Source: Cyrtodaria siliqua
Lineage: Eukaryota; Mollusca; Bivalvia; Adapedonta; Hiatellidae
DNA: 64,000 nt
Direction: 5' to 3'
Assembly: GCA_037043455.1 (NCBI GenBank)
Contig: JAWPHD010001819.1
Location: 1-64,000, forward strand
This document shows, one piece after another, positions 6,454 through 56,500 of this stretch. The translations under genes and the position numbers were made by a program. The notes beneath the pieces were generated by a model. The model saw only the letters and a list, made by a program, of their open reading frames with translations. It was not told the origin of the DNA and ran no database searches. Numbering within the stretch: the first letter of the stretch is position 1; each line of letters opens with the position of its first letter.

Positions 6454-6609
6454 CACTGGGCTGCCCTGTTTCAGATAGGAAGTGACTGTCTAATAATATG
6501 AGGTTCTGTACAATACGGTGATATATTTGGACTCCAACCCAGCTGACACAACCATATCGCACTAGCGGATCCAGGGGGGTGGCGCACCCGGCCTAAAAAT
6601 TCCGGATCA

Positions 6610-11381: not shown

Positions 11382-11547
11382 ATGACTGGTTGCCACATCC
11401 GACAGACCATAGACGATGGCGACATTATCAAGTCTGCGGGCGACGATCGTCACTACAGGGCACTGGAACTTACCAACGGGATGAAGGTACTGCTAGTCAG
11501 TGACAAGCAGACGGACAAGTCTTCTGCTGCAATGGACGTCTATATTG
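11382..11547 (+). CDS. IDE: IDE exon 1 (first recognised coding exon), residues 1-55
   Basis: The exon encodes the N-terminal strand region, with [19 protein letters not shown] and [12 protein letters not shown] matching the start of the mature M16 fold. The ATG at 11382 corresponds to the second, cytosolic start of human IDE (Met42). The reading frame is open back to a TGA at 11337-11339 with no upstream ATG, and an AG at 11367-11368 follows a pyrimidine-poor stretch. A spliced 5' exon carrying a mitochondrial presequence could therefore join at 11369. The donor is gtatgt at 11548, phase 1. Confidence 0.9.
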
Positions 11548-17500: not shown

Positions 17501-20500
17501 GACATCGCTGAACGACAAAAAATATCAAGGTCAAGTTTTGCGTTATTTACCCTAAACATCAGTTTGGTTAGGTAAGTTCACCTCAGTTAACTTTTTCTGA
17601 TAACTTTAATTTCTTTGTTTGATACTTGGTCATATGTATTGTTGGCATTGGTTAACATCACTGAATGACAAAAATTACCAAGGTCAAGGACATAGTTTGC
17701 ATTTTCCCCCCAAAACTTAACCTTGGTTAGGTAACTTAACATCAGTTAAATTTATGTGATTGTCTCACTTTATGTCTTTGATACTTGGTCATATGTATTG
17801 TTTGCATTGGTGGACATTGCTGGACGACAAAAATACCAAGGACAAGGTCATACTTTGTGTTGTTTTCCCCGAACTTAACCTTAGTTAGGTAACTTAACCT
17901 TGGTTAGGTAACTTAACCTCAGTTAACCTTATGTGATTGCCTCACTTTATGTCTTTGATACTTGGTCATATGTATTGTTGGCATTGGTGGACATTGCTTA
18001 ACAACAAAAAATACCAAGGTCAGGGTCATATTTTCCCAAAACTACACCCTGGTTAAACCACGTAAACGCAGTAACTTAACTTCTTATGATTACCTCGCTT
18101 TTATTTGTTTGATGCTTGGTCATATGAAGTGTTGTCTTTGGTGGACATCATTAAATTTATACACAAATTTAATAAAATATTTCATTTGCAGCGGTGGGCG
18201 AGACACCCTCAGACTAAGGTCTTGTTATTTGATCTTTACCAAACTTAAACAGATTGTTAATATCAATTTAAGCTCAGACAAGTTTGAAAACCAGCCATAT
18301 CTTATTAGTAACACCGGAGTTACGGCCCTTGATTTAGTTAAAAATGCTGTATTTTGCCTCAGTAAGACGATAGGGCTTTCATTTCGCCAGATTTTAATGA
18401 AACTCTGCAGGGATGATCAGTTCCAAATCTAGTCATGTATTCGTCACCGTGTTCCAGTTGAATGATTTTTGGCGGAGTTATCGCCCTTAGGTTTTAATAC
18501 ACGGATTTTAGCGAAACTTTGCAAGGATGATCAGTACCAGGCTTAGTGGTGCATATATTCACTATGTTCCGCTTGATTGATTTTGGGCTGAGTTATGGCC
18601 CTTTAAAGGTTTTACCACACAAACTTTATCTGGACTATTTCTCGAGAACCCTTGGCTGGATTTCAACGAAACTTTGCAGGGATGATCAGTACCAGGCCTA
18701 GTTGTGCATGTCATCGCCTTGTTCCGGTTGAGTAATTTTTAAAGGTTTTGATACACAAACTTTATCCACACTAGTCTCTTCTGAACTCCAGGACGAATTT
18801 CAACGAATTTTGGCAGGGATGATGAGTACCAAGCCTAGTTGCACCTATCATCGCCGTGTTCTAGTTGAATGAGTTATGGCCTAATATACACAAACTTTAT
18901 CCAGACAATTTTCCTGAACCCCTGGCTGGATTGGCAGGAATGATCAGTACCAAGCCTAGTTGCGCATGTTGTTGTCATGTTCCCCATAGACTCCATATAG
19001 CAAGTAAGGCGATACAGGCCCTCTTGGTCCTCTTGTTTCTGTCAAATATTCATTTTTTTCTAAAATTACTGGTTAGAATTAAAAAAATTCTTGATAATTT
19101 CCATAGTCTGATTCATTGATTTTATCAATATGATAGAAATTGACTCACAGGAAAAAATGTAGATAAAACACTGCTTTATTGTAGGGTCTGTAACTTTAAA
19201 CTTGACATTTCTGTTATTCCTGCGTAGTGTCTTGAGAAGGTTGATGGTAATATTTAAGATAAAACACTAAATTTTGTTCTCTTGCACAATATAAAACTCC
19301 ATGCATGTTATTTTTCAGTTCCTAAATGAACATGGTGGAGGGTCCAATGCATTCACATCTAACGAGCATACCAATTTCTACTTCGACATCACCCCTGAAA
19401 ATCTGGGTGGTGCCTTAGAAAGGTGAGACAATTTGTATGTAAATTACAGCTTTTATGTTTATATCACTAATCTGGGTACAGCCTTAAAAAGGTGAGACAA
19501 TTTGTGTGTAGATTACAGCTTTTATGCTTACATCACTAATCAGTTACACATCTGGGTGGAGCCTTAGAAAGGTGAGACAATTTGTATGTAAATTACAGCT
19601 TTTATGTTTATATCACTAATCAGTTACACATCTTGGTGGGGCAAGGGAGAAAATTTATAAGTTTTATATAGATCAGCGCCCCGTTTTATTAAACATCTTA
19701 CGATAAGTCTCACATTTTCAAAATCGTTCACTTTTTTCACCTAAGCATTCAATGTAGACAATTATGTATGCACGTAGTGCAGAAATATCACATGTATAAG
19801 AAAATGAAATGAAATCAATGGTCGTAAATTGTTTCATAAAACGGGGCCCAGGACTTGAATTTAGCTCTCGCAAACACGCAAATTGCGAATTGTTTTAAGA
19901 AAATGCAAGTTGAAATGTTCAGCACTTGCAAAAACTGTGAGTAAATCTTTCCTGTACAAGTTTAGCAGATTGATAGATTACTCAAATAATGAAAGGAGTT
20001 AGTTGTTATCTTTTACAACACATTCTAATGTAGTCAGTGTATGCGTAGAAATGTCCTTGACCGAGAGAAGAAGGAAAAATGCCGATAAGAATGGACTTTT
20101 GCAAGTTGAAAATATTTGCACTCACAAAGAAAACAAGTGGGTAAAAAAGTTAAAGACTACCTTTGATAGATGACCAAATCATTGTTTATACATATTGTTG
20201 TTTATACATATCGTTGTTTATACATATTGTTTGGGTCTTTTATATATTTACATGTAGATTACAGTTTTTATGTTTATTCCTGTAAACCTGTACACATCTT
20301 GTACATAAGGGAGAAGATTTATATACTCGGTAAAAAAAGTTTTGGACCAGGGTATATAAAGTCATATAAAAATAAAACTAGTGGACAAAATTTAAGTATC
20401 TTTTTTTTAGTAACGAAGGTCTACCCTACCCGGTTAGTTTGGTACCAGAAACATTAAATTCCAAACAAGATTTGATTTTAAAAAAATATCGCGAACACAC

Positions 20501-23500
20501 AAAGGGTCTGTAAAAGATGTTGCAAAGTCCATACAAAGTAACAGTTACGGACACATTCAAGTAACCAATAAAAAGGTTATTATTTATTCGCAAACTTTCA
20601 TTGTAAATGATAATTATTGTTGATTGTTGATCTATTGTGAATTATCAACTGAGATAATAAGGGTTATGATCGAATGTCATGGTTCAGAGATCATTGTATG
20701 GGTTCGAACACTGCCATGGTCCAAAACTTCTTTTACAGAGTATATATACACTGCTCAACTTTTATAATCGGTCACTTTTCAAAGAATTAGATATTTTTTA
20801 ATAATTCATATTTTCTGCTCAATTTTTACAATCGGTCACTTTTCAAAGAATTAGATATTTTTTAATAATTCATATTTTCTGCTCAACTTTTATAATCGGT
20901 CACTTTTCAAAGAATTAGATATTTTTTAATAATTCATATTTTCATATAGGAAAATTCCAGCTTCTATGTTTATACTTGTATTCTATTTACACATCTTGTT
21001 GCAGATAGGTGAGAAGGTTATATATTCCATGTTCTGGATAGATTACACACGGAGCTTCTACATTTACATCCGTTTTCATACCTTTCGTGGGAATGATAGA
21101 GTAAAGATATGTCCTTAGTGCAACAATATCAACTCCGTTTATAGTTGTGGTATGTCCGGGTATAATTGTGATAACATTTCCACTGTAACTATAAGCCAAG
21201 TATTTTTAAAACCAAGAATTGATTATAAAATAGTGTCGGCCGTTCAATCCCTTATTTCTAAACAACTGTAAACACAATATATTTTATTCTTTTTCAGATT
21301 CGCACAGTTCTTCTTAGAGCCATTGTTCACGGCGACGGCGACAGAAAGGGAGATAAACGCCGTTAATTCTGAGAATGATAAGAACCTACAAAGCGATTCC
21401 TGGAGGGTGTACCAGCTGGAGAAATCGCTCGCGAACCCAGACCACGACTACAACAAGTTTGGGACAGGTGAAAAAATTTACCAATTAAAGGGACTAGAAG
21501 CAATCTGGAAAATTGATTGGTGTCAGAGCTGTAGATAGTTTTTGACTGCAATGAATATTTTAATACTCATCAGATTTAAAATGAATGAGTAACAAGGAAT
21601 ATGCTCAGAGTAAAACAAGTTTTTTTAAAAAATAGTTCATGCGTCCAAAATGGATGTGAATCGATTTAATACATTTAAAAAGAAACAACCATTCTGATTA
21701 AATTGATGTTAAGTAAAACAAAACACTGTATGGACTTTGTTTTTAATATAAGACAGATGCCAAGAACAATTTCCATCATGTATATATGGAATACACTGAT
21801 CTACAGGACAATACATACAAATATAATACTCATGATTTTTAAAAGTTTAGAGTTCTTGTAGTAAATTGATAAGTAAGGATACTCACAATTTTAAAAACAT
21901 GAAGGTTTTTGTGAAAAAGGTATGAGTAAAATACTCAAAAACTCAGCTTAAGCTGTGATTGGTGTTTGTATAATACATAGAGGATATTTGTTGTTTTGGA
22001 GTGAATAACAAATAAAAGTTTTCTCACTTTGAGATGAAATAAAATATGTTATTCACGACAAAACAACAAATTTTGTTTTTATTTTATGATTTTACAAACA
22101 TAATTTTAGGGAAACTATGGTAGAACAACAAAAGTAGTCCCGGCAGCTACTGTGAAATAAAACTCTATATCCACAGTGGAATAACACTTATATACAGTAT
22201 TTCACTGCATATCATAAAATAAAAATGAAGAATATCATAATGTGCTTCAGGTTTTGATATAAAATGTCCACATGCTTTAAATTGTTGAGAAAACAGTTAA
22301 AATTCCAGTTAATAGACCCGATGTTTTTAATAAGTATTGATTGATCTGGCCCAAATTGAATTTGAACAGGCACTTGAGTTTCTAGGGGTGTCCGGGGAGT
22401 ATGCCCACCATGAAAATCGTGAAATCCTGAATTTCTGAATGCACAGTTCTGGATTTTTAGGGGTTAATGTCCTGATACTCCCGTTTGTTTTATTGATATC
22501 ATCTGTAGTGTAAAAAAAGTTGTTGTTTTTTTGCACGCAATATTTGAATCAGTTGATAATAGCAGAGACTGAGTGCTAATTAGCAGAGTGCATATTTAAA
22601 ACAAAGGCCAGTGGCTGGGTCCTAATGAAAACCCTGATAGACCAAACGATTGCTGTGTTTCCTTATAAAACATTAGGGCTCTCAATATCGGTGACTGTTA
22701 AAACAGGTTTAAAGTTGGGTTTGGAGATGTTTTAGTATCTAAGTGATTTAATATTCTTGCACAGGCAATAAGTTCACACTGGAGACGCGGTCCAAGAAGC
22801 TGGGGTATGACGTTCGGGAAGAGCTGATCAAGTTCCACGACAGCAACTACTCGGCCAACCTCATGGGACTGACGGTTGTTGGTAAAGGTATGCACAGCCA
22901 TAATTACTTCACATTTATGTAGTAATAGAGTATTGAGCATGTTAAAGATAACCTTCCTCGTAAGGTCGCTGTGGCTTAGTGATAAATTCGTGATCCTAGG
23001 TTTGGGTCCATCATTACTGTGTTACCTCTGAGTGTTATTAGCCTTGTCTATCCTCTGAACCATTTAATATAAGAATCTTTCATGGTTATCAGGTAAATAT
23101 TGGAAATTCCAATGAGGCTCTGCCGAGGTTCCGATTAAAACAATTATACCGAGGGTTGGAATATCCTATCTGAACTGGATACCCATGATCAATTCTTTTT
23201 CTTGAATATCATTGATGTTTTGTGCATCGACGTCGCCAATAACTAACGTTTTGCATGTTTTTTTACCCATTGACGTCTTGGAGCTGTTGATGTTATTGAC
23301 ATCATTGTTGATGCGCGTGACTTTTATCTTCTCCCATGTGTAAGTTCAGGCTTTCCACCACTCATGTTAAATGCGGATAACCTTATCTGGTATGCAAGAA
23401 ATAACCATACAGCACAGTTCTCTAAGGCAGCTCTAAATAATCTAAGATAAATGATAGATAGATGAGCTGTTAAATAATTAAATTCCTTCCTTTATAGACA

Positions 23501-26500
23501 GATTGAGGCCGTCTACTATATACCAAACTGGTGCCCAAAAGCATCTTAATTTTTTTTAACCTGCCTATAGGAAGATGAAAATCTTGCCTTTCGTGGTTTG
23601 TGCTTGTCTAAATTGCAGAAATTAATCATTATCCAAAACTTATTGATGGATACTACTCCATCATTAGATTGGTGACCTTTCTGTACTACAACCTCCAAGA
23701 TGTTTCGTAAAAGTCTTTTCCAGTTTGTTTGCTATGAACATTTCACATACATTCTGTACATTAGGGACAGCCTGTTTTATGAAATAACTCTGCATGCGTT
23801 AGTCAATGACTAAGTACATGATTGCAATATCTCAGAATCGCTGGATGAGCTGACAGACATGGTGTTGCCGTTGTTTGCTGGCGTTGAAGACAATAAACTG
23901 GAGTTCCCGGAGTGGAAAGAGCATCCATTTGGTCCGGAGCAGCTGCAGACCATGTGTTACGTGAACCCCGTGAAGGACATCAGAAACATGTCTGTCACAT
24001 GGCCCATACCTGACCTACACAACTACTACAAAACGAATGTGAGCATTTGCCATTTTGATTTTTATTTCAATTTCCTTATACTTTTTTTATCGTAAAGAAA
24101 TTTCACTACTTCGTTTCTAACTGTTTTAGGGCATGGATAAAAACCAGTAAAGTTTCCTGCATAACACTAATTTCATGCTGTTTAACTGTCAAGAACAGAG
24201 GCGTACATGTTCCAAATAGAAGAAAAATATATGTACAGAATGAAATCAGTTTTTGTTAGAACGTATACAATAACTTCATGTATTATTAAATTCTCATAAC
24301 AACAATGTTTATATGTTTGTATGTAAATGCAAGTTTCGGATGTCAAATACCATAATTTATTTCTTTAAATTGTTCACCGAGTCGTATACCAATTTACATC
24401 ATAAAACATATTGTTGGGCCTCATCCTTTTCCCAACATTTTTAGAGTCTCTGACTTGAAATCACTTGCCCCTCACCGCTGTGGGTTCGATCCCTCATGGG
24501 CTTAGGAATGAACCTTTATGTGAGGAAGCTATCCAGTTGGCTTGTGGAACGTAGGTGGTTTTACCCAGGTGCCCGCCCGTGCACGAAAATTGCTCGGAGA
24601 GGCTCCTGGGGTCTTCCTCCACCAAAAGAAGCTGGAAAAGTCGCTGTTCGTGCAACTATAAAATCCAATTCAGTTTTCCAAAAATTATTGTAATTGACTG
24701 TTTTTTCTCATACAAATCAAGCTGCTGTGTTTGTGTAACTGATTATAATTAGGTATGGGGTGTTTTAAAAGGTTTGGTGGAATGTCTTTAATAATGGAAC
24801 AATAACTACTGTTTATTGAAATCTTAAAAATTATTTCCCCCCGCTTTCACAAAGTGAAGTGGGGCTTTATAGGAATCACGCTGTCCATAACGGCCCGTCC
24901 CGTCCCATAACACATTTTTGTCCCGTCGCTTCTCGTAACATATCCTTATTACTTGGCACTCCTCCAACAGTTTTGAATGAGTTGTTCCCAAACTTCATAT
25001 ATCCCTCTGTTGATTGCCTGATTTATTAAAGAATTATGGCACTTTGTTTGACTAAGAATTTAAGTGGGGGTATTCATCACCTTCAGTGATAGTTCTAGTT
25101 CCAACTGTAGCCGTCTGCCAAGACCAACACTCACAGTAGAATTTATATTTTATATCAGCTATTGGTACCTTAAAATACATTTATACTTGTACTGTTGATA
25201 TTTCCATGACATACATGTGTTTTGTTTTCAGCCAGGGCACTATCTGGGACATGTGATTGGCCACGAAGGGAAAGGGAGTCTGCTGTCGGAACTCAAGAGT
25301 AGAGGTGAGAGTGACTTCCCTTGCAAAATATCTTATTTTAAACACAACGAGGTCTAAAATGTCGAAGTTGCAGACAGTGTTTTGTAAATAACTGTTCAAA
25401 AGTGATTAAGGCAAGAACATAATTAAACATAGGTATCCGTTTAGATTGAGAAATTGAAACTCTCTTTAAACCTTTATTGCTATGATTTCGTGGAAGGGTG
25501 AGGGCTTTTTTTCCTTCCGAAACAGGGGCTGAAATTCGGCTACTTCACAATTCAAAATTGGTCATTTGTGGCCAGTTTTTTTCACAAGTCCGCATCTAAC
25601 TTTCTCAGTATTGTTTTATTTTGGATACATTTACATTAGAAAGTTTATCTAAAATGTAACAGATTATGCTGAATAATTGTACATTTGTTTTATAGTGTCC
25701 TCCTCCCACAAAAACAATGTATGCATGTATTGAGTAATATTGCTTCCAACAATTAGTCTTTTAATACTTTTTTCACAAATCAGACAGTTACCACGCTTTT
25801 TTTCTTCACAGAATGACCAGGCTAGGGAGTCTTCACAATTCTTAAACCTACACTTTCACACCCATGAGATTATGTGTCGCCGTTGTTCTTTTTCTTGTAT
25901 ATATCTGTGTGCTGTAAGTTTTGTGTCCGCCCTATAACTGCTTTGTCTATCATTGGATTCCAATAATATTATACATAATATTTACTACCTTGAAATGATG
26001 TGTCACCACCAACCTTCAAGGTCAAGGTCACACTAAGGGAAGCAAGTTTGATAAAAACAGGGTACCTTTACAAAACAACAAATATAACAGAGCATGTTTA
26101 GATTTCTGACAATTGAAAGGAGTCTAAAATATTGAATTATTAAATTGAACTTGACAGCATTTAAGTTTATGACTAAAATTGCAAGTTGTAATAACAAATA
26201 TTTTCTCATATTTCAGGTTGGGTGAACACTCTAGTTGGGGGCCAGCAGCAGGGAGCTAGAGGGTTCATGTTCTTTATTACAAACGTCGACCTCACTGAAG
26301 AGGGGCTAGGTAAGGGGTTTCTTGTAAAGTCAACTTTAGGCTGTCCGTTTAAATATAAAAAGATGGAATTTAGTAGCAGGTTGCACAAATAACAGACTCA
26401 TCTATGAGAATTAACAGAAATGTTTAAAAAGATTATTCTTTTTTTCTTTCCAGAAATCTAATCATTTGAAAAGGCGTCATCAAATTAAATCTTACTCTCG

Positions 26501-29500
26501 CTTTTCACAGATATTGCAATGTGTGAATTGTAAATATCTATTGTTGTGTATTGATTTCGATTTGAATAAACATAAACATGTTCATGAAGCAAAACATGGC
26601 CGGAGAACTTTAACCAATCTAGTAGCACATTTTTTAATGACAATCAACAAGTGCGTTAGACATGTTGTTTATATTATTCTAGAATATGTGGATGACATTC
26701 TTACCCTGATCTATCAGTACATACATATGCTGCAGAAAGAAGGCCCAAAGGAGTGGATATTCAACGAATGCAGGGTATGGGCTTCAACTCATTCACCCCT
26801 GTAAACTGCATTGGTATGGCCCAACTAAAAAGGGGGTAAAGTCCATTATGGAAATGTAGGATGAAAGGGTTAATATTCTGAGATGTGACCAGTGGAAATT
26901 AATTTTTAAAATAAATTGGTATAAGGTAAATAGAGCTTATGCTGCGGTTGATTGTGCATCCAAATGTCTCTCTGTCTGTCGGTTGGAAGTTTTAAGGGAG
27001 CATATATAATTACCTCTTTGTCCGTCTGTTTGTCCGCACCTACAAACGGGGGTTTACGTGGTTAGGGTCTAGGGTAAGGATTATATTTGTCTTTCAGTGA
27101 AATTATTTGTTTAAAGACACAAAATAAAGTTTTATGTGGCTAAAAAATGCTTGGCATTAACCACACAAATATACATTTGTTAGAATGTCCATCTGTCTGT
27201 CTGTCTGTCTGTCTGTACTGTTTTTCTTGTCCAAATCATAACTTGAAAACTACCTATGGGACTGGAATGTTACTCCACACAATGTTGGAGGACAATGAGC
27301 CAAAGTGCAGAACAGGAACCATAACTCCATCTTTATTAAAATAGGGTTATTACCCATAATGTTATAATTCTTGTCCGGTGCATAACTTTAAAGCTATTAA
27401 GGGGACAGGAATGAAACTTGACACATGTTAATGGGCATTGAGAGGAAGTGCAGACCGCAATAACAGTAACTCTGTATTTATTCATTTTAAGGTAACTGCC
27501 CTTTGTAATCTGGTTTAAAGTTCGGTTAAAATTTATTTTTCTTTATGCGCAGTTTTACACTGTTTTTAAATTCTTGTTTTTCAACAGGATTTAAGTAACA
27601 TGCAGTTCCGGTTCAAGGACAAGGAAAAGCCCCGCAGTTACACATCTGCCCTCTCCGGTATATTGCACGTAAGATAAAAAAATTATGTTTTATAGTCATA
27701 TACGCTTCATTCTCTGACAAGCCTAACAATCCCTATGGCTGCTATTGTTAAAAATAGACTGAAAGGAGAATATAAAAAAGCTGGTGTTCCTTTCTGTTTT
27801 GATCCAAAACAAATAGAGGCATTACTGCTGTTAATTTTGTATAAATCATTAATAGTAATTCATATATAATGCTTTTAGGCTCTAATAAATGCTTGTTTTG
27901 GGATTGAAGTACACTTATATGAAATAATATGTACAAATGACAGCAATATAAATAATGTGAATATATGAACACATATTCTAACACGACCTGCGCAGTCTTT
28001 CATATACACAAAGAAGAGAGGCAACTGTATGTTATTCTACGATAAAATACAGCTGTTCCATTAATTCCCCGCTTATATTTCATCCGCGATATAAACCCAT
28101 CATATGCATCAGTACACATAACATTAATAAGCAACTTGAACAAGCTAAGAACATTTGAAGTCATACAGCGCAAGCTATATGACGTAAGGAATGACTTAAT
28201 TGTTTGTCAAGTGACTATTAGTTTATTTAAACATATTGTACTGCGCAGAACTTTGCATACGGGGGCGCCCAATGGAACAGCCTGTAAAATTAGCAGCCTG
28301 ATTACCTTGACCTCCGAGATAATATATAGTGCCCCCACAATAGCGTAAACAATAAATATTGTTGGGTTAGAATCGAAATAATAAATACGTACTTGTATTT
28401 TATCGGTGAATAAAATAAAGTTAGTCGTTCGGATACGAGTAATTAAATGACTCGTGCTAACGCACACGTGATTTAATTACTACGCATCCGAACTCCTAAC
28501 TGTATTTTATTCACCGATAAAACACCGGTACGTATTTATTATTTCTTAATATTAATGACTTAACTATCAAAAAAATATTTTGGTAATATGTGGCTCATTT
28601 CTGTGCATTTGCTCATTTCATATGACTCTGAAGCACATTATCATGATGGTTGTCATCTGTATTTGTATTGGCACCAATCTCTCTCTAGTCCCATTAAGTG
28701 ATTATTGTATTATTGTTTGCAGGACTATCCTCTACCAGAAGTTTTGTGTGCACACTACATGCACACGGAGTACAAGCCCGAGTTGATCTCCATGGTTCTT
28801 GATAGACTGGTGCCAGAAAACATGAGGTAAATCATAGTTCTAGGTAGACTGGTGCCAGAAAACATGAGGTAAATCATGGTTCTAGATAGACTGGTGCCAC
28901 AAAACGAGGTAAATCATAGTTCTTGATAGGCTGGTGCCAGAAAACGAGGTAAATCCTAGTTCTAGATAGACTGGTGCCAGAAAACATGAGGTAAATCATA
29001 ATTCTAGATAGGCTGGTGCCAGAAAACATGAGGTAAGACTGGTGCCAGAAAACATGAGGTAAATCATAGTTCTAGATAGACTGGTGCCAGAAAATATGAG
29101 GTAAATCATAGTTCAAGATAGACTGGTGCCAGAAAACATGAGGTAAATCATAGTTCTAGATAGACTGGTGCCAGAAAATATGAGGTAAATCTTAGTCTTG
29201 ATCATCCAGACCTCTCGCGAGACTTCTCTCAAAGAAGTCCACACGATGGTCTGGAGTAAAGCTTCTTTAAGATTTTTGACATCAAAACGAGGCCTGTACA
29301 AAAGAAAATCACCGTCCGCTCATTGGTCAACTTCAGTTTGTTATGGGAATCTGTGGGAATCACCCCCTACGTCACGAAGGCGTCAGAAATTACGTGACGT
29401 TACGCGCAATGTTGTATAATAAAAGTGCACCAAACAAAGTCAGTGGATCACAATTAATACTAAAAAATAAATTTTATAAACATAATTTTGTAATATAGTT

Positions 29501-32500
29501 TATATTATGTTTTTAAAAATTACAAAAAACGAAGTTTTTTGTATATTGAATAAGTCTCATCCAAAGGACTGGTCAGGTGTCCATTGGAATTAATGTTGCG
29601 TGTAATACAACGTGCAACGTGATGTTGCGGTCAAAATGGCGTCACGTTGCAGTTGGTGCCGTCTATCGATCAAACATTTTAAAGAACCACGAGTCCAGAC
29701 GCTCGCTAGCGCTCGCAATCAGCTTGAGTGTGTCTGGATGATAGAGATTAGGTAAATCATAATTCTAGATAGACTGGTGCCAGAAAACATGAGGTTAATC
29801 ATAGTTCTACATAGACTGGTGCCAGAAATAGAGGTAAATCATAGTTCTAGATAGACTGGTGCCAGAAAATGAGGTAAATCATAGTTCTAGATAGACTGGT
29901 GCCAGAAAACGAGGTAAATCTTGACAATTTGTACACACAGAATCAACAGTAACTCCTGATCGAATATTTATAATGTTTTTCTTTAAAGCATTCAAAATGG
30001 CCACAGTTGTTTAAAAAAATGCAAGAAAGTAGGAATGGGAAGAATAAATTGAATGGGCCACTTAAAGGCAATCAAAAATGATGAATATCGTTAGATGAAT
30101 AATGCACTGAGGACTTTGTTCTTTTCATTATCATATAGAGAATATCATTTTGGTGCCTGATCACAGCCAGTTTATCAGGTGAGGCTGAGAAAAAAAAGAA
30201 GCCCAAGTCTGTGCCGAGGGCTTAATTTTTTTCTTGCCGAAACTGATAACCTGGATACGATCAGGCATTAACATGATATTCTATTTTAATATCATGTGTA
30301 TCGTTTAAAATCATTTAATTTACCTTTTCCCAATTTTTTTCCCGTTCAAAAACACCCAGACGTCTTCAAATATACCCTGACGTCATCAAAAGAGGTGCTG
30401 ACGTCATCAAAAAAGGTGCACCTGACGGGATAGGAAAGTAACTGCCAAGATAAGATTTTATCTCGGGCATCCTGTTTCTCGGCAGAATTATACATATCGA
30501 CATGATAAAATGCAATGAATGGATGGTTACAAATGAACTGGCTTCTGATGAAAACTGTTAAATTCAGCATAAAGGACTTGAGGCGATCCAGCCATTTTAT
30601 GTTTTGTGATTGAATTACACTTTATAATACTCCTGCTTAACTTCGTTTATGGGGTCTATACTGGTTTCACCTTGTCCGTCCGTCTCTGTCTGTAGACGCC
30701 ACCTTGTCCGCTCCATAACTCCTCTCCACCTAAAGCAAATGTCATGAAACTTCATGGATGAACTGCCTTTGGTGAGAGGATGACCCCTAGTGAATTTGAA
30801 GTCAGTAGGTCAAAGGTCAAGGTCGCCAGGACTGATAATGAAAAACCTTTTCAGCTCCATAACTCCTCTCCCTCTGAAGCAAATCTCATGAAACTTCATA
30901 GGTCAACTGCCTGTGGTGAGATGATGACTCCTAATGATTTGAGGTCAGTAGGTCAATGTCACCGGGACCTGATCATGAAAATCCTTGTCCCGCTCCATAC
31001 CTCCCCCCCCTTTCACCCCCCTCCCCCTGGAAGCAAATATTATGAAACTTACTGAGTGGACTGCCTGTGATGAAAAGATGGTCCCTATTGGTTTTGTGGT
31101 CAGTAGGTCAAAGGTCAAGGCCGCCATTACCTGATCATGAAAATCCTATTAAACTCAATCTTTACTCAAACGGTACGGTGGGGAATGGGGGGAGGGGGGA
31201 GGGGTGGGGGGAGGGTCGGGGGACTCTTTCTCTTGTATTTGTATTGGCACCAATTACTCTCCCAGATTATCTCCATTGTTATTTGAATAGTACTGTTGAT
31301 AGGTGACCAATGTTTTCATTATTTTTATTCTTCTGTCTAAATGTTAGAGTGTCGGTGGTAGCCAAGAAATATGAAGGCAAAACCAACACCAAGGAAGAAT
31401 GGTACGGCACAGAATATCTGATGGAGACCATACCAGCAGAAAAGCTCAAGGTAACTAGCAGGATAGAAGGTGCATTCTGTCGCCCGCTATTTCAAGCTAC
31501 TTCAGAGTTACCTCCCATATCGGGGGTGTATTATTTGGCCCGTAAGTTGACTGTTTAAGTTGAGAAAAGTACATGTGTGACTGCAAAATCTCAAAATCTG
31601 TAGGCGTGATTAGAACAAGTCTTTAATATGATAGCATGTCTAACCACTTGACCACCTTTGTTTGTGGTGTTTAGCTTTAATATATTTGTTGCTTTCCTAA
31701 GTTGTAAACGATTCTGTATTGCATGTAAATTAGACTAGTTACTCGTCGGATAATAATTAATAATAAATCGATAATCAATAAAAAAAATAATAAAAAAGAG
31801 TGGCCAGTCTGTTTTTGAGGATTCTGATCTACTATCTAGGCTATATTATTAAAGGTCGAAGCTAGAAAGTAGACTGGCCACAGAGCAGGATTTAATACAT
31901 AAATCCTTTAAAATGGGGTCATTCTTGATGTAAATATGTGGACACTAAGACTGTGTTGTGTTGTTTTCAGGCTTGGGGCTCCTGTTGCCTACATGAGAAC
32001 CTCACACTGCCAGATGTTAATGAGTTTATTCCAACAAACTTTGACCTTGTGAGCAGGGAACCGGAGGTAAACATTCCATTTTTTGGGTGCAAATGAACGA
32101 CTCAAATGTTAATCTTTGATCGATAAAACATCTGATTTGTACGGGTGTCGCCATGGTGTAATGGTTAGCCCTTTGGTCTAGTGAGTCAGGGATCGTGCAT
32201 TCTATCCCAGCCAGAAATACTTAAGAAATACATTAATTCCAGCGGGTTTATATTTTCCCAGATCAAAACCTGGTGGGCGGGACTTGAAGACCATCGATAT
32301 CGCGGTTTCGATGTGTTTCAAGTCCCAACCACCAAGTTTTGATCTCGCACAATATAAACCGCTGAAAAGATTTTTTTTTTTTTATCTGACATGCATTTTT
32401 ATTTATTTTATATGCATATTTTCGACAGATTGAACATAATACAAACACATTCTCACAACTTACATTGTACTTCCATCTCTTAGCAACAAACGAAGGACAT

Positions 32501-44500: not shown

Positions 44501-47500
44501 AATGATATTTTATTTTTTTTTACTTGTTTTCAAGTCAAATCAAAGGTTTTCCATTCTGCAATTTTTTTACAGAATTTTGGACCTTTATTTTACTTAGAAT
44601 TTATATTTTAAAAAAAGCGAGGGTATTCATCACCGTCAGTGATAGTTCTAGTTTATTTTCCCCAAACTTAACCTTGGTTAGGTAACTTAACCTCAGCTAA
44701 CTTGTCAGTGATTGCCTCACTTTATGTCTTTGATACTTGGTCATATGTATTGTTGGCATTTGTGGACATAGCTGAATGACAAAAAATACAAAAATATCAA
44801 GGTCAAGGTCATATTTGGCATTATTTCCCCCCAACTTAACCTTAGTTAGAGTTAACTTTATGTGATTGCCTCAATTTCTGTCTTTGATACTTGGTCATAT
44901 GTATTGTTGGCATTGGTGGACAGCGCTGAACCACAAAAAATACCCAAGATCTTATCATATTTTGCGTTATTTTCCCAAAACTACACCCTAGTTAAACCAC
45001 TTAACCTCAGTAACTTAACTTCTTATAATTACCGGTACCTCACTTTAATTTGTTTGATACTTGGTCATTTGAAGTGTTGTCTTTGGTGGACATCATTTAA
45101 GCATCATTTAAGCACAAATTTAGTAAATATTTCATATGCCGTTTGCCGCGGTGGGCGAGACACCCTCAGACCGAGGTTCTATTAAAGGGAGTTAATAAAT
45201 TATAGTATTAACAAATAAATAACACAAACAAATTTTCCCTGTGACTGATCTGGCTATCAAAAGTAAGTCATTTACTTGTCATATGAGTGCTTCAAGGTCA
45301 CTGAGGTATTGTTAGTGGAATGTTTCCTTACCTTTAGTGATAATTCTATTTTTTTTTATAGAGAATCTTTAAGAACCTTTAATGTTTTGTTTTTTTGTTT
45401 GTTTTTTAAGAAATTGACATACTGGTATTTGTTATGGAAAATATCAAATAATTATTTTTTCTCACAAATTGACGTTTTTCCTGAACTTGTTAATTTTTTT
45501 CCACAGATAATATTACTTGTTTATGTATACCGTAAAAGGTGTACAAACATACAAGTTTGTCAACAACTTACTGTGATAATGACGTTAGTGTGAGCGATAA
45601 TGATCGCAGTCTGTGTTTTACAGCGCTGACCGAGTTACTTGGGAATATATTTGTAATCGTAAATAAGTATAAAGGTTAACAGAGAATGTTTGTAAAAAAC
45701 AAGTAAACCTAGATGAAGTTGATGTTGCCATGACAAATACCGACTGTTGCCATGACAAATACCCACTGTTTGCCATGACAAATACCCACTGTTTGCCATG
45801 ACAAATACCCACTGTTTTCCCTCTCATGGTCCTAGGGGTAGTGGATGCATTGATAACCAACGTTTCTCAAAAACGTTTGATTTGATACTCATGATGATGT
45901 ACCATGTTTTGTCTCGACTTTGCGATCACATTGTCGTCGGGGTTTATGTGTGTCAGTTTGTTAGTCTGTGTGTCTGATTTTCATTTCTTAACATCTTCTT
46001 CGTTACTTGCAGGATTTTCACCAAACTCCACCAGAATGTTCATTATATCGATAGCATCATGTGACCTACTTTGAACAAAATATAGGTCACGTTCGGTCCG
46101 CTACGACGTGCATATCATTTTGAAACCTTTTAAAAAGTTTTGAAGGTACATGTATTCCCGAGATACATACAAGTGTAAAACTGTACAAAAAACATTGTTT
46201 CTTGCAGTACACACGGAGCCTGCGTAATTTCTACGCAGAACAGCCCCATCAACACGCCGTGTACTTCACATCAGTTGTCATGTCCGAGATGCTGTGGACA
46301 CAAGAAGAATTACTGGATAGTCTAGAAGGTATTTATATACGATGAAGATTAATATATAAAAGCCATTGGAGACGTCTGCTTGTATGACCTTGACTTACAT
46401 TTTTGTACTTAATCAGCAATAATCTTTTTTGCATTTGACTTATTTCATTAGTTTGTTTCTCATTCATTTAACTAGTGACTTGACAATCCGTCTGTTACAG
46501 ACATTTTGATATATTTAAATAGATGTTTAATCCGACTGTCAGAAATCTTGTTAATCTGTATAGGTAAAGCCTTTAATATCAAAATACCAATTAACAGTTG
46601 CAAATAAATTTATTGCAGAGGTTACTCTGGAGAAACTAACGTCATTCCTACCTCAGATGTTTGCCAGGATGTATATAGAAGGTCTGGTGTACGGCAACAT
46701 TACCAAGCAGGTGAGTTATTAACTAATGTCACTGCTACCACAAATGTTTGCCAGGATGTATATAGAAGGTCTGGTGTACGGCAACATTACGAAGCAGGTG
46801 AGTTATTAACTAATGTCACTACTACCACAAATGTTTGCCAGGATGTATATACAAGGTCTGGTGTACGGCAACATTACCAAACAGGTGAGTTATTAACTAA
46901 TGTCACTACTACCACAAATGTTTGCCAGGATGTATAAAGAAGGTCTGGTGTACGGCAACATTATCAAGCAGGTGAGTTATTAACTAATGTCACTACTACC
47001 ACAAATGTTTGCCAGGATGTATATAGAAGGTCTGGTGTACGGCAACATTACCAAGCAGGTGAGTATTAACTAATGTCACTACTACCACAAATGTTTGCCA
47101 GGATGTATATAGAAGGTCTGGTGTACGGCAACATTACCAAGCAGGTGAGTTATTAACTAATGTCACTCCTACCTCAAATGTTTGCCAGGATGTATAAAGA
47201 AGCTTATTAAACAGGAGAGTTATTAGCTAAATTCATTCCTGCTTCAAATGTTTGCCAAGATTTTAAACTACCGCATATGTTTGCCAAGATATATATAGGA
47301 AGTCTGGTAAATACTTCAATACTTATCTAAAAAAAAAAATCAAGGGATTGTAGGCATACAGCCAAACAGTCTTTGTTCTTGAGCTTTCTGAACAACTTGG
47401 AAATACGTTTAAATTAATAATTATCAGAATCAGATGATAAACAAGGACGATATGACCATTTCAAGGTTGTTCTTAAATGGATATGTTATCGTAGTGCTTA

Positions 47501-50500
47501 AAGTAGCAGCTCCAGTATCTAAATTAACACATGGCATATTGATAATTATTACACTTTAGTTTACTTGTTTTTGTCTTGCCTTTTCGAAGAAAAATAAGAG
47601 ACAGGTGTTGTTTATCCGGCGATGGCGTCAACCTTCGACTATTTCATTAGGTCACTTTCTCACAAACTGTATAACTTGCATATTTTGAGAATCCAAACTC
47701 TATAGACAGAATATAAATGGCTTTAACCGGCCAGGCCAAATCCCAAAACTGGAGCGTTGAATTAAGAGTTACCAACGTATTCAATCACGGGTATTTTAAG
47801 AACCTGTGAACAAACCTGAACTTTTAATTGGCAAATATACATTATTATATGACTTGAGGCAAGAAGTGTGAACACGCAAATTTCTTGCTCATACAGTTGC
47901 TGTGTTTTCCCCCCTATAAATCAGTAAATTTTCATATTTATAAATACTCCATATATGGTAATTTAGAACTTTGATGTCTCAAAATGGCAGCTTCCATATC
48001 CGTTTCAAAAGAACCTTCAGCCGATCATATCTTCTTTGTTAATCATCCGATTTTGATAATTCTTTCACCCTTTTCCAAGATTGTCCTAACTCTCAGTAGT
48101 AAAGATTGTTTGGCTGTATGCCTACATTCCCTTTAACATCTATATCAGCACAGACTTCTTACTACTAAGTTCAATAGAATACTTCAAGGGTATGTTTGAT
48201 TTGTTTACAGAAAGCTGTGGAGATGACGGAGATGATAGAAACAGTACTGAGAGAGAAGGTCTCAACAAAAGAATTGTTGCCTAGTCAGCGTCGAAAACTG
48301 AGAGAGATTCAACTCCCAGACGGTATGAATTTCAGTAATATGTATTCTCGCTTGTCAGAGTATCACGGTATACATTGTTAATAATCTCTAATAGTCTCCG
48401 GGAATGAGGCGGGAGTTAATTACGAGCCAATCTAATGCATCTGTTTCAAGCGAAATTAGAAGAAAAATAAATAGTTGGGCCTGAATAAAATACAACTTCC
48501 TGTGAAATGTAAGATGGCCGCCACAAGATGAAATCAACTTAGAATAAAAAGCTGCTGATCCATACATTTTTTTAAGCCATACAAAGAATTCATAGAGGAT
48601 ATTTATGAAGTTATCTGCATGACATATGCCTATAGTCATTCTTAAGTAATAGTTATGTTGATGATGCTTCCAATATGGCCATTGGTGGCCATTTTTGTGT
48701 TGCCTGCATAGCATGGCAGACACATAGGGATCCCTTTGTCCATCATCACTCTGTCCTTCATCGTCTTTCCGTCGTCTGTCACTTTTTAACCTTCAACCTA
48801 ACCTCAGCCATAACTTTTTAGACCTGTTTTCATGAAACTTCATACACATCTTCATCTTATCACAAGGAATGTTGTTACATATGTCCAGTAACTCTGGCTT
48901 TCTGTTCAGCAGAGTCATGCCCCTTTTCATAATCTTAAAGCTGCAGCCTAAACAAGCTCATAACTGGCCATAACTTAGAAAGTATTTGACATATGTTCAT
49001 GTAACTTCACACTATCCACCACTAGCTAAAATACGGTGACACAAGTGTTCTCATGGAACACCCTTCTTTACGGAACCAAACAGCTAATATACCAGTAGAC
49101 AATACCTTTAATAACCCAATAATAACAATCAATAAATCAAAACAAATTTCATTCTGAACGAGACAAATATCTTGTCAATACCGACTGTAAATTAAAAAAA
49201 ATCATTCAAATCACCAACGGTACCAGTCGGCATATAATAAGTTTATAAATTAAAGGTATTGTCTACTGGTGCGTTAGCTGCTTGGTTCAGTATAGTTGTT
49301 TACATAGACATTTATAGGAAATCTATATGGTAATGTTAATATGTTTCCCAGGTTGCTACTATGTGTACCAGCGTACCAACAGTGTGCACAAGAGTTCTAG
49401 CATAGAGATCTATTATCAGTGTGGACAGCAGACCACCAACACCAACATGTTACTGGAGCTGTTTGTACAAATCATCAGCGAGCCCTGCTTCAGTATTCTC
49501 AGGACCAAGGAACAGTTAGGTAAGCCTTCTTCAGTATTCTCAGGGCCAAGGAACAGTTGAGTAAGCCTGCTTCAGTATTCTCAGGGGCAAGGAACAGTTG
49601 GGTAAGCCTGCTTCAGTATTCTCAGGGCCAAGGAACAGTTGGGTAGGTATTTTTGAATGTTTGTTTGTTTGTTTAAATGGTGTTTACGTCATTTTTAGCT
49701 CTACTGGCCAACGGCCAGCAGAGCTTATGGGATGGCGAGTTGTCCGTAGTCCTTCCGTCGTCCGTCCGTCGTTAACTTTTATCTCAATAAGATGATACGG
49801 CCTTCAATTTTCTTCCGATCTTTACTAAACTTTAACAGGTTGTTAATAACAATGAAAGCTCGGACAAGTTCGAAAACCAGCCAGATCTGACCAGTAACAT
49901 CGGAGTTATGGCCCTTGATTTAGTTAAAAATGCTATATTTTGCCTCGTTAAGACGATAGGGGCTTTATTATTCATCCGATCTTTATCAAACTTTATCAGA
50001 TTGTTAATATCAATGAAAGCTCGGACAAGTTCGAAAACCAGCCATATCGGACTAGTAACAGCGGAGTTATGGCCCTTGATTTAGTTAAAAAGGCTATATT
50101 TTGCCTCGTTAAGACGATAGGGTCTTCATTTTTCATCCGATCTTTACCAAACTTTACCAGATTGTTAATATCAATGAAAGCTTGGACAAGTTCGAAAACC
50201 AGCCAGATCGGACCAGAACAGCGGAGTTATGGCCCTTGATTTAGGTGTAAATGCTATATTACGATAAGGCCTTCGTTTTTCGTCCGATCTTTACCAAACT
50301 TTACCAGATTGTTAATATAAATGAAAGCTCGGACAAGTTCGAAAACCAACCAGATCGGACCAGAACAGCGGAGTTATGGCCTTTGATTTAGTTAAATATG
50401 CTATATTTTGCCTCGTTAATAGGGCCTTCATTTTTTATTCGATCTTAACCAAACCTTACCAGATTGTTACTATCAATGAAAGCTCTGGCAATTTTCAATA

Positions 50501-53500
50501 CCAGCCAGATTGGACCATTTACACCGGAGTTATGGCCCTTGATTTTCTGAAATATGCTATATTTTGGCCTCATTAAGAAGAAAGGGCCTTCATTTGGCCA
50601 GATTTCAGTGAAACTTTTCAAAGATGATCAGTACCAAGCCTAGTTGTACATATCGTCACCATGTTCCGGTTGAATGATTTTGGTGGAGTTATGTCCCTTT
50701 AAAGTTTTTTGATACACACACATTTTCCGGGCTAGTTCTCCTGAACCCCTGACTGGATTTTGACAAGGATGATCAGTATCAAGCTTAGTTGTGCATATCG
50801 TCGCCATATTCGGGTTGAATGATTTTTGGCAGAGTTATGGCCCTTTAAAGGTTTTAATAGCCAAACATTGTCCAGATTAGTCTCTTCTGAACTCCTTGCT
50901 GCATTTCAACGAATCTTGATGGGGATGATCAGTACCAAGCCTAGTTGCACCTGTCATTGCCGTGTTTTGGTTGAATGAATTTTGGCAGAGTTATGACCCC
51001 TTAAAGGTTTTAATACACTAACTTTGTACAGACTAGTTTTCCTGAACCTCTGGCTGGATTTCAGTGAAATTTGTCAGGGACAATCAGTACCAAGCCTAGA
51101 TGCGTATATCTTCACCATGTTCTGGTTCAACTATATTTGAAAGAGTTATGGCCCCTTATACATAAACTTTATCTTGAGCCTGTAGAGCGTGTTGGCATAT
51201 GTTAGGCCATATATGACGACGGTCGATATTTTAGTAATAGAGGCAAACCACTCCATTTTTCCTGGTTAGAACCAGTACTGTATACCTTCCGCCATCCGTA
51301 AGAATTGTACTTTCTCACATGACAGGTCGAGGTCCCAGTTGGATTCGAACCCGCAGCAGTGAGAGGCGAGAAAGTATTTTGTAGTAAACCCCATTTGAAT
51401 GCACTCGGGACCAAGGTTTAGTTGTGCTGCAAACTTGTTTATCATGCATGAAATCTGTGTCACAGCAATCTACACTTATGTTCAGGTTGACAGATACAGG
51501 TGCTTTTGAAACACCCAACTGTCAGATGTTAATTCCTGTTAAAAGGTTTGTGCGGCTTGTCGCAAGTTGTAAATTTATATCACTGATGTTAATTCAATAA
51601 TGAATGAATATACATGTTTTCTAGTTCCTACTCCTATGTTTTCTAGTTTACACTCCTATGTTTTCTGGTTCCCACTCCTATGTTTTCAGTTCCCACACAC
51701 TAGTATAATCTGTCTGGTATTTATAACATCATCAGAATATTTCAGGGTTTATTTACAATTATGAAATATGAGAGCCTTTTATCATGTGATCTGTTTATGT
51801 TGCAGGTTATATTGTGTTTAGTGGTATACGCAGACAGAGCGGTGTACAAGGATTACGTGTGATAGTCCAGTCAGACCGCACACCGGAGTATGTGGAGGGT
51901 CGCATAGAAGCCTTCCTACACAGCATGGAGGTAAGGATTATAGTTACACAGTATGGAGGTAGGGATTATAGTTACACAGCATGGAGGTAGGAATTATAGT
52001 TACACAGCATAGAGGTAGGGATTATAGTTACACAGCATGGAAGTAGGAATTATAGTTACACAGCATGGAGGTAGGGATTATAGTTACACAGCATGGAGGT
52101 AGGGATTATAGTTACACAGCATAGAGGTAGGGATTATAGTTACACAGCATGGAGGTAGGGATTATAGTGACACAGCATGGAGGTAGGGATTATAGTTACA
52201 CAGCATAGAGGTAGGGATTATAGTTACACAGCATGGAGGTAGGGATTATAGTTACACAGCATGGAGGTAGGGATTATAGTTACACAGCATGGAGGTAGGG
52301 ATTATAGTTACACAGCATGGAGGTAGGGATTATAGTTACACAGCATGGAGGTAGGGGTTATAGTTACACAGCATGAAGGTAGGGATTATAGTTACACAGC
52401 ATAGAGGTAGGGATTATAGTTACACAGCATTGAGGTAGGGATTATAGTTGCACAGCATGGAGGTAGGAATTATAGTTACACAGCATGGAGGTAGGAATTA
52501 TAGTTACACAGCACAGAGGTAGGGATTATAGTTACACAGCATGGAGGTAGGGATTATAGTTACACAGCATGGAGGTAGGGATTATAGTTACACAGCATAG
52601 AGGTAGGGATTATAGTTACTCAGCATGGAGGTATGGATTATAGTTACACAGCATGGAGGTAGGGATTATAGTTACCGGTACACAGCATGGAGGTAGGGAT
52701 TATAGTGTTATTCAGTGCAGGTTTTTTAGACAAAGGCTGTTTTTTTACTTGCAAAGACAGTTTAAATGGAGTTTTTTTAGATGAATATTAATGTTATGTG
52801 GTAGAAAAAAGGAGCTCTCATTTTATAAACATATGAGGAATGAAAACACAATTTTAATACCATTTTTATTTTGCTTTTTAATTTTCCTTTGGCAGAAATT
52901 TAACAAATATTGATTAACCCAAGTTAAAAGCTTTACATCTTATGAAGACAACTTATCATGATCTCTTCTTTTCAAAACTTGATTGCTCTCTATATGTTGA
53001 CAACTTTGTTTTATGTTATCGTGCAAAAAACATGAACGCTATTGAGAGACAACTTCAACAATGTCTCAATAAACTTCAGTCCTGGTCTGATGAAAATGGT
53101 TTTAAATTTTCTAAATCTAAAACTAATTGTATCCACTTTTGTCAACTACGTAAACATCATAAAGACCCTCATCTAACACTTGATGGGTCACCAATGCCAG
53201 TAGTGGATGAGACAAAATTCCTTGGTCTTATTTTGGACCATGAATTAACGTTTATACCACACTTTAAATATTTGAAGGCCAAGTGCCTTAAAGCTCTTAA
53301 CTTAAAGTTGTTTCAAACACTAACTGGGGAGCGGATCGTAAAGTACTTTTACAACTTTATAGATCTCTTGTCAGATCAAAGCTGGACTATGACTCAATAG
53401 TATAGGGATCGACTCGCAAGTCATACTTGCAGATGCTCGATCCTATACATAATCAAGGATTATGACTCGCCTTAGGTGCCTTTCGTACATCACCAGCCGA

Positions 53501-56500
53501 TACTACAGTGTTAATACTAAGAAAGAGTTATTTGATACTATAGATTTTAGAGTTGTTTTGGATTTCCTGAAAGAAATCAGACTATATAAATCATTATAAT
53601 ATGTTCTTATATATATTTACTTATTTATATACCTGTTGACGGGCATTTGTTGATTTACATAATATTATATAGTTTATATTACTACCATATCATCCCTTAT
53701 TTGTAAAAGGTTTTATCTTTATATATTTATATTAATTTTTAATTACTACTTCATTTCTTCATCTTTCATCAGTTTTTGAACACAATGTGTCCACGTGCCA
53801 TAAAACACCATTCATTCATTTATTCTTTTCAAACGCTTAAAGGGACACATGACAATCTTGAAGTTTGTATTAAGCTTTAATATGGCATCTTGATTTATAA
53901 GTCTAGTATCAATTTGACTTTAAACCTGCTTGCATATAATTAAGTAAAACTTTTGAGTTTTCAGATTCTACCCACAGACATATTAATTTGTTTACCAAAT
54001 GTTTAAATATATGATTGGTGCAATATAATAGCAGTTAATAATATGGTAAAACAATTTGCTTTGAATTATTCTAATAAATAATAGTATATTATGTAGGACA
54101 ACTAATGGGATGGCGCTATTGTTTGGGGCGCTTGTTTCAGCCAAAGGTTTTTTGGACTTTTCAGGCAAAATTCATCTACTACCTAAATAAGTTGTATATC
54201 AGTGAAACAGACATTTTTAGTGGTAAATAAAAATATCTTACTTTTCAAAATCGGTTGAGAAATGATTTTTTTTTGTGCGAAATCTGTTTTTGACGGGTCA
54301 TTTTCAATGCAAAAATTAATTCTGCTGCATGAAAAATTTGAAAAACATTTTTTTTTTTAAATTTTATCCAAAAAATGGTTTTAAATTGTTGGATATTAGT
54401 AAATTAAATCACCCTAAAAGTTTTATAGCAAAATATGAAGGATTGCTGAAGTTATTTGAAATTTCTTAATTTTCTGCTGTCCCACCAACAAGGAATTTAC
54501 ATAGGAAAAGTCCCATCAAAAAATCATTTTGGCTGTAAAATATTTATTTCTAAACCGATTTTCAAAAGTAAAGTAGTTTTATTTACCACTGAAAATGTCA
54601 GTTCTAATGATATATAATTGATGTACGCATTATTTAAAGTGCTCAAGTTACTGCAGAAAAACCTTTGGCTGAAACAAGTGCCCCAAACAATAGTTTTAAA
54701 CATTGCCATGTGTCCCTTTAATGATCACATTTATAGGAAATTTCACATCGATCTTTCTTAGAATGCCTAGTTGTCACTTCTGTAATAACTAAGGTCTGCC
54801 AAACATCCAAGATGGCCTCCAGTGCTCAAAGTAGACTAAATCTAGAAATGTTTGTTAATTTTTTTGATTGAACTCAAGTCTTAGCAATATTGAACCTTTT
54901 TGAATGTGACCAGCATGTTAAGTTGGGACTTTAATACTAAATTGATTTTACTCGGTAACCCAGGCTGCCATCTTTGTTTTGTTGCAGTGTAATTTTGTTT
55001 GACACTTCTGTTAAGTAACTCAAGAAAGCTGTTTCTTGTGAACAAGATGTTCCCTGTGATGTGTGCCTCACCAAAAGTCTAGGTTCTCCCAATATATAAT
55101 ATGGTAGATTTTGTTGAAATATACAGGAAATAGTAACTTTTTTTATCATCTCTCCTCTGGAACCATAAGTCATGTCAGTATATTAATATTCTCTAAATTA
55201 TCGCCATGGCCTCTAGAGCTTCATGGCATGTTAATTTAATTTGGTCATATTTGTGTAACTGGGTAAAGCCTGTACAGGTAATGATTTATATAGATGTAAT
55301 TTGAAGTATATTTCAACTGTAAATGAAAAGATTTTTAAGAAGTATAGACTACAAGGAGCTATTTATAGACAGGTATAATGCATTTTGGTGATTTATGGGT
55401 GTTTTTAAGGGACAGGGCAGGGAGATCAAAGGATAGGGCGTTAATTAAGGAGTAGGGGAAAATTAGATTTTAGAATGAAGGGATAGGGTGAATGTGCTCT
55501 TAAATGGCCTGTGGAAGACCCTGACAGGTAAATGGTGAAAAGTGATTCCTAACCGTATGTCCTCGATAGCTCAGTGGTTAGAGCGCTGGTACGGTAAACC
55601 AGAGACCCTGGGGTCGAGTCCCGGTTGAGGAACGATTTTTCACCACCTGCTTGCACAACTTTGTTTCGACTGATTTGTTGTAATTTTGAAATATTTCTTT
55701 ATTCAGGACTGTATAGCCAACATGAGCGAGGAAGAGTTCCAAAAGCACATATCTGCTCTGTCAGCTAAACGTCTAGAGAAACCTAAAAAGATGTCTACAC
55801 AGTACTCGCAATACTGGTCTGAGATAGTCTCACAGCAGTATAACTTTGACAGAGGTAGGTCTCACAGAAGTAAAACTAAGTGTTTTGGATAGATATGTCA
55901 TGGCAGGAGAACTTTAACAAAGGTAGGTCTCACAGAAGAACTTTTACAGAACTAGGTCTCACAGGAGTATAACATTGACGGATGTATGGTATAAATGTAA
56001 AGATTAAGGTCTCATAGTGGTACACCTCCTGCAGAGGTAGGTCTCGCAGAAGTATAACGTTGTCATATGTATGGTAACTTAAAGATTAAGGTCTCACAGT
56101 GGTACACCTCCTGGAGAGGTCTCACAGAAATATAACATTGACAGATTTATGGTAACACAAAGATTAAGCTCTCACAGTGGTACACCTCTTGGAGAGGTAG
56201 GTCTCACAGAAGTATAACATTGACAGATGTATGGTAATGTAAAGATTAAGGTCTCACAGTGGTACACCTCCTGCAGAGGTAGGTCTCGCAGAAGTATGAC
56301 ATTGACAGATGTGGTAACTTAGATAAAGGCCTCACAGTGAGATGTATGGCTCACAGCAGAAAAAGAAGCATTGAACAGAACTATAACTGCCATATGTTGG
56401 TCTCGCTGCAGTAAAATCTTTTACAGATGTGTTATCTCAGAGCAGTGTTGTTGTCAGATGTGTGACTCTCAGCAGTTTACCATTGCACTGGAAGCTCAAC

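Follow-up and report, generated by a model that had tools for sequence, protein, structure and literature searches.

What multiplies the exon-intron border, time after time, within a single gene? The question is raised by the insulin-degrading enzyme (IDE) gene of the bivalve Cyrtodaria siliqua, which lies in the window analysed here, i.e. bases 1-64000 of contig JAWPHD010001819.1 (C1819) in an assembly of 2.88 Gb and 26,948 contigs. At seven of the 26 donors of this gene, the end of the exon and the start of the intron are repeated in tandem into the intron. The explanation that we favour, with a probability of about 0.66, is that these arrays are splice-junction-spanning minisatellites ('mirages'), the seeds of which straddled exon-intron borders and which are tolerated when the exon-side copy is the one that is spliced.

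The gene model consists of 27 exons and 26 introns, with a single stop codon, at the end in exon 27; its first base (11388) is a working start, the true start codon being uncertain. The joined protein is 76-78% identical to its five best matches over the whole length. Most of the named matches among the best hits are labelled insulin-degrading enzyme, and the best named relatives are from the heterodont bivalves Mercenaria mercenaria (78%), Mactra antiquata (75%) and Mya arenaria (74%). Recurrence of the splice junctions was assessed with a 24-mer centred on each junction, which was sought up to 2 kb away, allowing no more than 3, 4 or 5 mismatches. At all three limits the donors of exons 4, 12, 17, 20, 22, 23 and 24 recur (7/26), which are the seven that an earlier note, made from the letters alone, had singled out, while none of the 26 acceptors does. 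The donor copies (IDE donors 1-25) are all downstream and none is found upstream on the exon side; the arrays have thus grown intron-wards. The gene and its donor-spanning arrays, with limits given by Tandem Repeats Finder (TRF) where so marked, are the following.

11388..60490, + strand: insulin-degrading enzyme gene, 27 exons (AG/GT borders, consistent phases, protein matches)
19400..19639, + strand: array at the donor of exon 4; junction after 19422; 3 copies, spacing 69 and 80 bp (TRF)
28791..29196, + strand: array at the donor of exon 12; junction after 28826; 42-bp unit, ~10 copies (TRF)
29750..29920, + strand: second block of the exon 12 array, after ~0.55 kb of other sequence; 40-bp unit, 4.2 copies (TRF)
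37102..37362, + strand: array at the donor of exon 17; junction after 37114, AGT/GT; 26 bp x 10 (TRF)
46634..47202, + strand: array at the donor of exon 20; junction after 46710; 87 bp x 6.6 (TRF), 6 copies aligned
49484..49645, + strand: array at the donor of exon 22; junction after 49519; 41 bp x 4 (TRF)
51917..52706, + strand: array at the donor of exon 23; junction after 51930; 28 bp x 28 (TRF)
55828..56339, + strand: diverged array at the donor of exon 24; junction after 55854; period ~82 bp; left edge by eye

The unit sizes are near those given in the earlier note, and copy number ranges from 3 (exon 4) to 28 (exon 23). Counted from the TRF starts, the first copy includes 23, 36, 13, 77, 36 and 14 exonic bases at exons 4, 12, 17, 20, 22 and 23, respectively, and ~27 by eye at exon 24. 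The exonic part, which had been put at 12-70 bp, therefore measures 13-77 bases, the longest being at exon 20 where the unit takes in most of a 92-nt exon. The array at exon 24 appears in two TRF rows (55904-55964 and 55953-56339), and its junction 24-mer is found again at +68 and +97. Six of the seven junctions are indeed AG/GT, the exception being exon 17. In 45 pairwise comparisons between ten units (the seven from IDE and three from other genes, see below) no pair shares 14/16 bases. Because their units share no sequence, the seven arrays look like separate events, as already proposed in the note, and to judge by their sequences they look different in age; copies diverge outside the donor window by 1.9-2.6% at exons 17, 20, 22 and 23 and by 4.2-6.6% at exons 4 and 12, and the exon 24 array is ~84% matched. 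The 0.55 kb that split the exon 12 array (29201-29742) start with ATCATCCAGAC (29201) and end with its reverse complement (29732-29742), as if a small element resembling a miniature inverted-repeat transposable element had inserted after the array had formed.

The note took each copy to be a ready decoy donor, and most of them are. GT is intact in 50/50 of the non-first copies counted (6 of the 13 listed copies at exon 12, 4 of 5 at exon 20, 26 of 27 at exon 23 and all those at exons 4, 17 and 22), the diverged exon 24 array, in which some of the listed copies have lost the donor, being excluded from the count. The intact splice dinucleotides, here and in the arrays of L035 and L033 described below, hint weakly at decoys being retained, or may reflect nothing more than young copies picked by similarity. 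In all seven arrays it is the 5'-most copy whose donor agrees with the protein. Splicing from the second copy instead would bring in an in-frame stop within the insert in six arrays and a frameshift (28 nt) in the seventh, and therefore only the first copy keeps the protein and selection for it should be strong. In 5/7 arrays the first-copy donor scores at least as high as all the listed copies; it is exceeded by a single copy at exon 12 (11.0 vs 9.1) and by another at exon 24 (9.42 vs 9.36). At exons 22 and 23, the first copy differs from all the listed others inside the donor window; at exon 17, it is identical to several of them.

According to the scenario that we prefer, tandem arrays would arise throughout the genome and the seed units of some would by chance straddle an exon-intron border. 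Additional copies would then persist in the intron but not in the exon, since splicing uses the one at the exon edge and removes all the others together with the intron. The two borders would not be equivalent, since the correct copy would be transcribed first in a donor array and last in an acceptor array, so that donor arrays should be more tolerated and acceptor arrays rarer, although they do exist (see below). Splice-site choice during transcription should favour the survival of donor arrays. The seven arrays add length to introns whose acceptors are independent of them. We infer that it is the 5'-most donor that is used, that tolerance is asymmetric in this way and that the copies originated by slippage or unequal exchange.

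A first indication of how general this may be comes from exons in other genes, predicted with an exon finder trained on the IDE exons, the accuracy of which on IDE is therefore optimistic (at a score of at least 20, 22 exons predicted, 21 of them exact and 0 on the reverse strand; at a score of 18, 24, 22 and 2, respectively). It returned 63 predictions in 28 loci (L008-L035), of which 27 inside arrays or with a weak coding score were dropped and 36 kept, and an exon added by hand in L035 brings the sample to 37. This sample leans towards arrays, because L033-L035 were fetched after L020 and L029 had shown genes with nearby arrays. By the strict test, 1/37 donors (95% interval up to 14%) and 1/37 acceptors are spanned, rising to 2/37 donors when an ABC-transporter-like exon is counted. 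In this small sample of genes the rates are therefore near the background measured at 5,600 random points (3.7% in first copies and 4.2% in last copies).

The earlier note had stated that no acceptor shows the mirror pattern, which holds within IDE (0/26) but fails in the genome. On contig C5723, an array of 75 bp x 35 (L033:441-3069) ends inside an exon (3026-3204), each copy carrying an AG along with a run rich in pyrimidines and ~40 bases of exon. Of the ~35 copies, it is the last (3'-most) that supplies the exon that fits; joined to the two exons predicted after it, this exon gives a match to the PARP catalytic domain (E 5.6e-19), in what is presumably a PARP14-like gene. One extra unit beside the exon keeps the frame without a stop, so that use of the next upstream acceptor would add 25 residues; the 800 codons upstream hold 7 stops. 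Approximately 15 kb upstream of this array is a donor array (L035, 86 bp x at least 21, ~5540-7400, edges approximate), which extends across the donor of an exon (5468-5602) that is Macro-like (E 0.0018 for the domain, below the Pfam cut-off). Here, the exon end comes first and the donor is taken to be that of the first copy, CAG/GTGAGT being unchanged in 21/21 listed copies. In both arrays the exon is at the exon-side edge, and the same genome thus makes both donor- and acceptor-spanning arrays. Two further donor arrays are found at a PAN-like exon in L022 (PAN_1 E 0.00029, just under the cut-off), which was unpredicted and is outside the count, and at the ABC-transporter-like exon in L020 (weak Pfam match, E 0.0053, below the cut-off), where the array takes in the last 6 but not the last 12 nt of the exon. 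At a macro-domain exon in L029 an array starts at the donor by eye, but the junction test is negative and it was not counted, and in L011, in a gene that we take to be PMPCB-like, an array lies ~110 nt past a donor without spanning it.

How far chance can account for the IDE gene depends on the background chosen. The gene has 28 arrays covering 18.7% of its span, and 250 kb elsewhere in the genome (50 kb of which adjoined the IDE gene or another M16 gene) have 130 arrays covering 20.9% of bases, or 0.52 per kb. If any copy is allowed to cover a junction (17-21% of 6,493 intron points), 7/26 donors are unremarkable (P 0.14-0.30) and it is the zero acceptors that stand out (P 0.002-0.008). If only first copies are considered (2.9-3.6%), 7/26 donors have a P of 7e-6 to 2.6e-5. 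We think that the first-copy null is the better yardstick, since a seed unit has to contain the junction, yet the answer depends on this choice. IDE donors differ from IDE acceptors with a Fisher P of 0.0098. All these P values for IDE are optimistic, because the gene was chosen for looking striking. Repeat content around the IDE donors is roughly level from -6 to +300 (5-7/26), and there is thus no peak beyond the seven arrays.

Several of these comparisons count against seeds that straddle borders by chance. When the 28 arrays are placed at random, their seed units span 0.79 donors on average, and seven spanned donors were obtained in 0/20,000 simulations (maximum 5). The gene is also an outlier relative to the other exons (7/26 vs 1/37, P 0.0067; vs 2/37, P 0.026; Fisher), and in the pooled data spanned donors (8/63) outnumber spanned acceptors (1/63) with a P of 0.03, IDE dominating the pool. 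The excess in the IDE gene is therefore not fully explained by mirages seeded at random, and it may be an outlier that results from scanning many windows.

This excess is what makes the strongest rival attractive, namely that a mutational process tied to 5' splice junctions or transcription (e.g. R-loops, or slippage at the step in composition between exon and intron) favours duplications at donors. Besides the seven donors where 0.8 are expected and the absence of acceptors in IDE, it is consistent with the way in which arrays at IDE intron starts reach into exon ends. A word search of the whole genome, on both strands, for three spaced copies of AGGTAAG gave 17,778 matches, against 6,034, 7,602, 8,863, 13,018 and 14,394 for five control words of the same composition. 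The donor word thus tops all the controls (rank 1 of 6), which speaks for the process, but only by 1.24-2.95x, and while AGGTGAG is 1.41x its reversal, the acceptor word TTTACAG (1.64x) and one of two null pairs (0.90 and 1.47) are raised as well. Moreover, long arrays weigh heavily because word matches are counted per copy. Grouped by eye, the ~100 listed AGGTAAG places belong to 5 arrays (contigs C2 to C8) and those of the control GAAGTAG to 15 (C1 to C94, 4 by C8), so that when arrays are counted the donor word has hardly any lead over the control. Single-copy counts in 216 kb are 17 for AGGTAAG, 20 for its reversal and 17, 43, 23 and 19 for the other controls. The genome-wide excess of the donor word is therefore modest at most; by our own uncomputed estimate, a rate like that in IDE everywhere should give far more matches.

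Sampled units are more favourable to such a process. Among 100 arrays with units of 15-120 bp, a donor-like score of at least 8 was found in 11 vs 4.4 expected, and a score of at least 10 in 3 vs 0.8 expected, whereas acceptor-like units were not enriched in the same sample (a score of at least 8 in 2 vs 4.9 expected). This enrichment of donor-like units is suggestive. Of the three top units, that in L022 is tied to an exon, L020:3372-4220 is not, and the third, in L029, looks by eye like a chance partial match. Set against this are the 1/37 donors and 1/37 acceptors in other genes and the existence of the PARP acceptor array. A genome-wide rule restricted to donors is rejected on the same grounds, since the PARP array contradicts it and the exon sample gives it no support. 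Altogether, we consider a junction-linked process improbable as the source of the IDE arrays, and its use as a genome-wide account is not borne out; the note was fair in marking a common cause as inference. A slightly less probable version, which we would also advance only tentatively, is that 5' splice junctions are themselves hot spots of tandem duplication, that introns would grow from their donor ends and that selection imposed by the order of splicing would filter out most of the acceptor mirrors.

It is very unlikely that selection keeps the extra donors, e.g. as redundant 5' splice sites or as U1 landing pads marking the starts of long introns. GT is unmutated in 70 non-first copies (50 in IDE and 20 in L035), which has a chance of ~0.017 at the mean rate, AG is unmutated in 32 copies of the acceptor array (32 of 34 counted), and the donor window varies less than the rest of the unit (1.6% vs 2.8%, P 0.07), all in accord with such a role. 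However, likeness across the junction was the criterion by which copies were chosen, and this biases the count towards intact sites. In addition, variation in the donor window equals or exceeds that in the remainder of the unit in the arrays of exons 22 and 23 (3/27 vs 2/96 and 7/234 vs 13/494, respectively), whose copies have donors scoring below the first, and the exon 24 copies are partly degraded.

An assembly artefact, in which the arrays or their copy numbers would be false, is even less to be expected. Copies differ by substitutions and small indels, neither unit nor degree of divergence is the same from one array to another, and the piece of exon 21 that was tested has one match in the assembly, no second haplotype being found with which copy number could be compared.

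Finally, the route of intron gain or expansion named in the earlier note, i.e. the Rogers model in which a duplicated AGGT-bearing exon segment makes the intron, and in which, as outlined in PMC4974935, the new intron's acceptor and next exon derive from the second copy, shares with the IDE arrays a tandem duplication containing AGGT (with 6/7 junctions AG/GT), and amphioxus mirages have been put forward as a source of new introns (PMC3087553), but we reject it for the seven IDE introns as next to incredible, since the units are part exon and part intron, the introns run past the arrays to unrelated acceptors, and the starts of the next exons match the arrays at only 10-13/20 bases in 7/7 cases, so that neither acceptors nor following exons come from the duplication and the introns have been expanded rather than gained.

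The window has other repeats and features of its own. Two arrays of ~161 bp, in intron 3 (16554-17326) and intron 22 (49788-50595), have units that are similar by eye, and units resembling them are also present in L017 and L029; this is perhaps a dispersed repeat with internal tandem units. An array of 33 bp x60 (40394-42383) has long open stretches in several frames, because its unit is a multiple of three. Intron 23 has an open frame (52918-53397) that, as we read it, is presumably a piece of a reverse-transcriptase-type protein and, upstream of exon 24, a tRNA-Thr-like sequence (55560-55633), which may be a genuine tRNA gene or else the leading part of a short interspersed element.

Arrays of this kind have precedents, and those in IDE are a new, dense case of the mirages known from amphioxus. 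Mirages occur there in Adh3, in the globins BflGb6 (acceptor side) and BflGb9 (donor side), and in troponin C and PGBD5 (PMC3087553; PMC3902484), with boundary copies that escape homogenisation (PMC3087553; PMC3902484). The first of these reports gives units of 10-160 bp and both 5' and 3' boundaries affected, and in BflGb6 a copy number that differs between two haplotypes, splicing being undisturbed as suggested by reverse-transcription PCR (PMC3087553). The likeness lies in a tandem repeat across the exon-intron boundary (7/26 IDE donors), in units of minisatellite size (26-87 bp in IDE), in the many copies that carry splice signals and, when the PARP exon is considered alongside IDE, in both types of boundary being affected in one genome. 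Unlike those of amphioxus, the arrays described here are in a bivalve, with seven in one gene, all at donors and with up to 28 copies.

Two other systems are more distantly comparable. In human segmental duplications, minisatellites (mean unit 30 bp, ~4 copies) at exon-intron borders change introns (De Grassi and Ciccarelli 2009; PMC2812944), but, unlike IDE, these are recent paralogues with 27 intron modifications, two thirds of which also have a transcript that keeps the repeat (PMC2812944). In fission yeast, SPOG_01682 and SOCG_00815 have introns with 24-bp tandem repeats carrying splice signals; there, exonic repeats were turned into new introns (PMC3629103), whereas the IDE introns do not depend on their repeats. 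A search with a few terms in the open-licence literature found no report of a mollusc mirage.

The occurrence in a bivalve of donor and acceptor mirages, with up to 35 copies, suggests that mirages are not confined to a single lineage and turn up where minisatellites are abundant. A donor excess across genes, if true, would point to a mutation process linked to the junction. The arrays are also natural tests of how introns lengthen from their ends and, in IDE and PARP, of how the spliceosome chooses among dozens of near-identical donors or acceptors.

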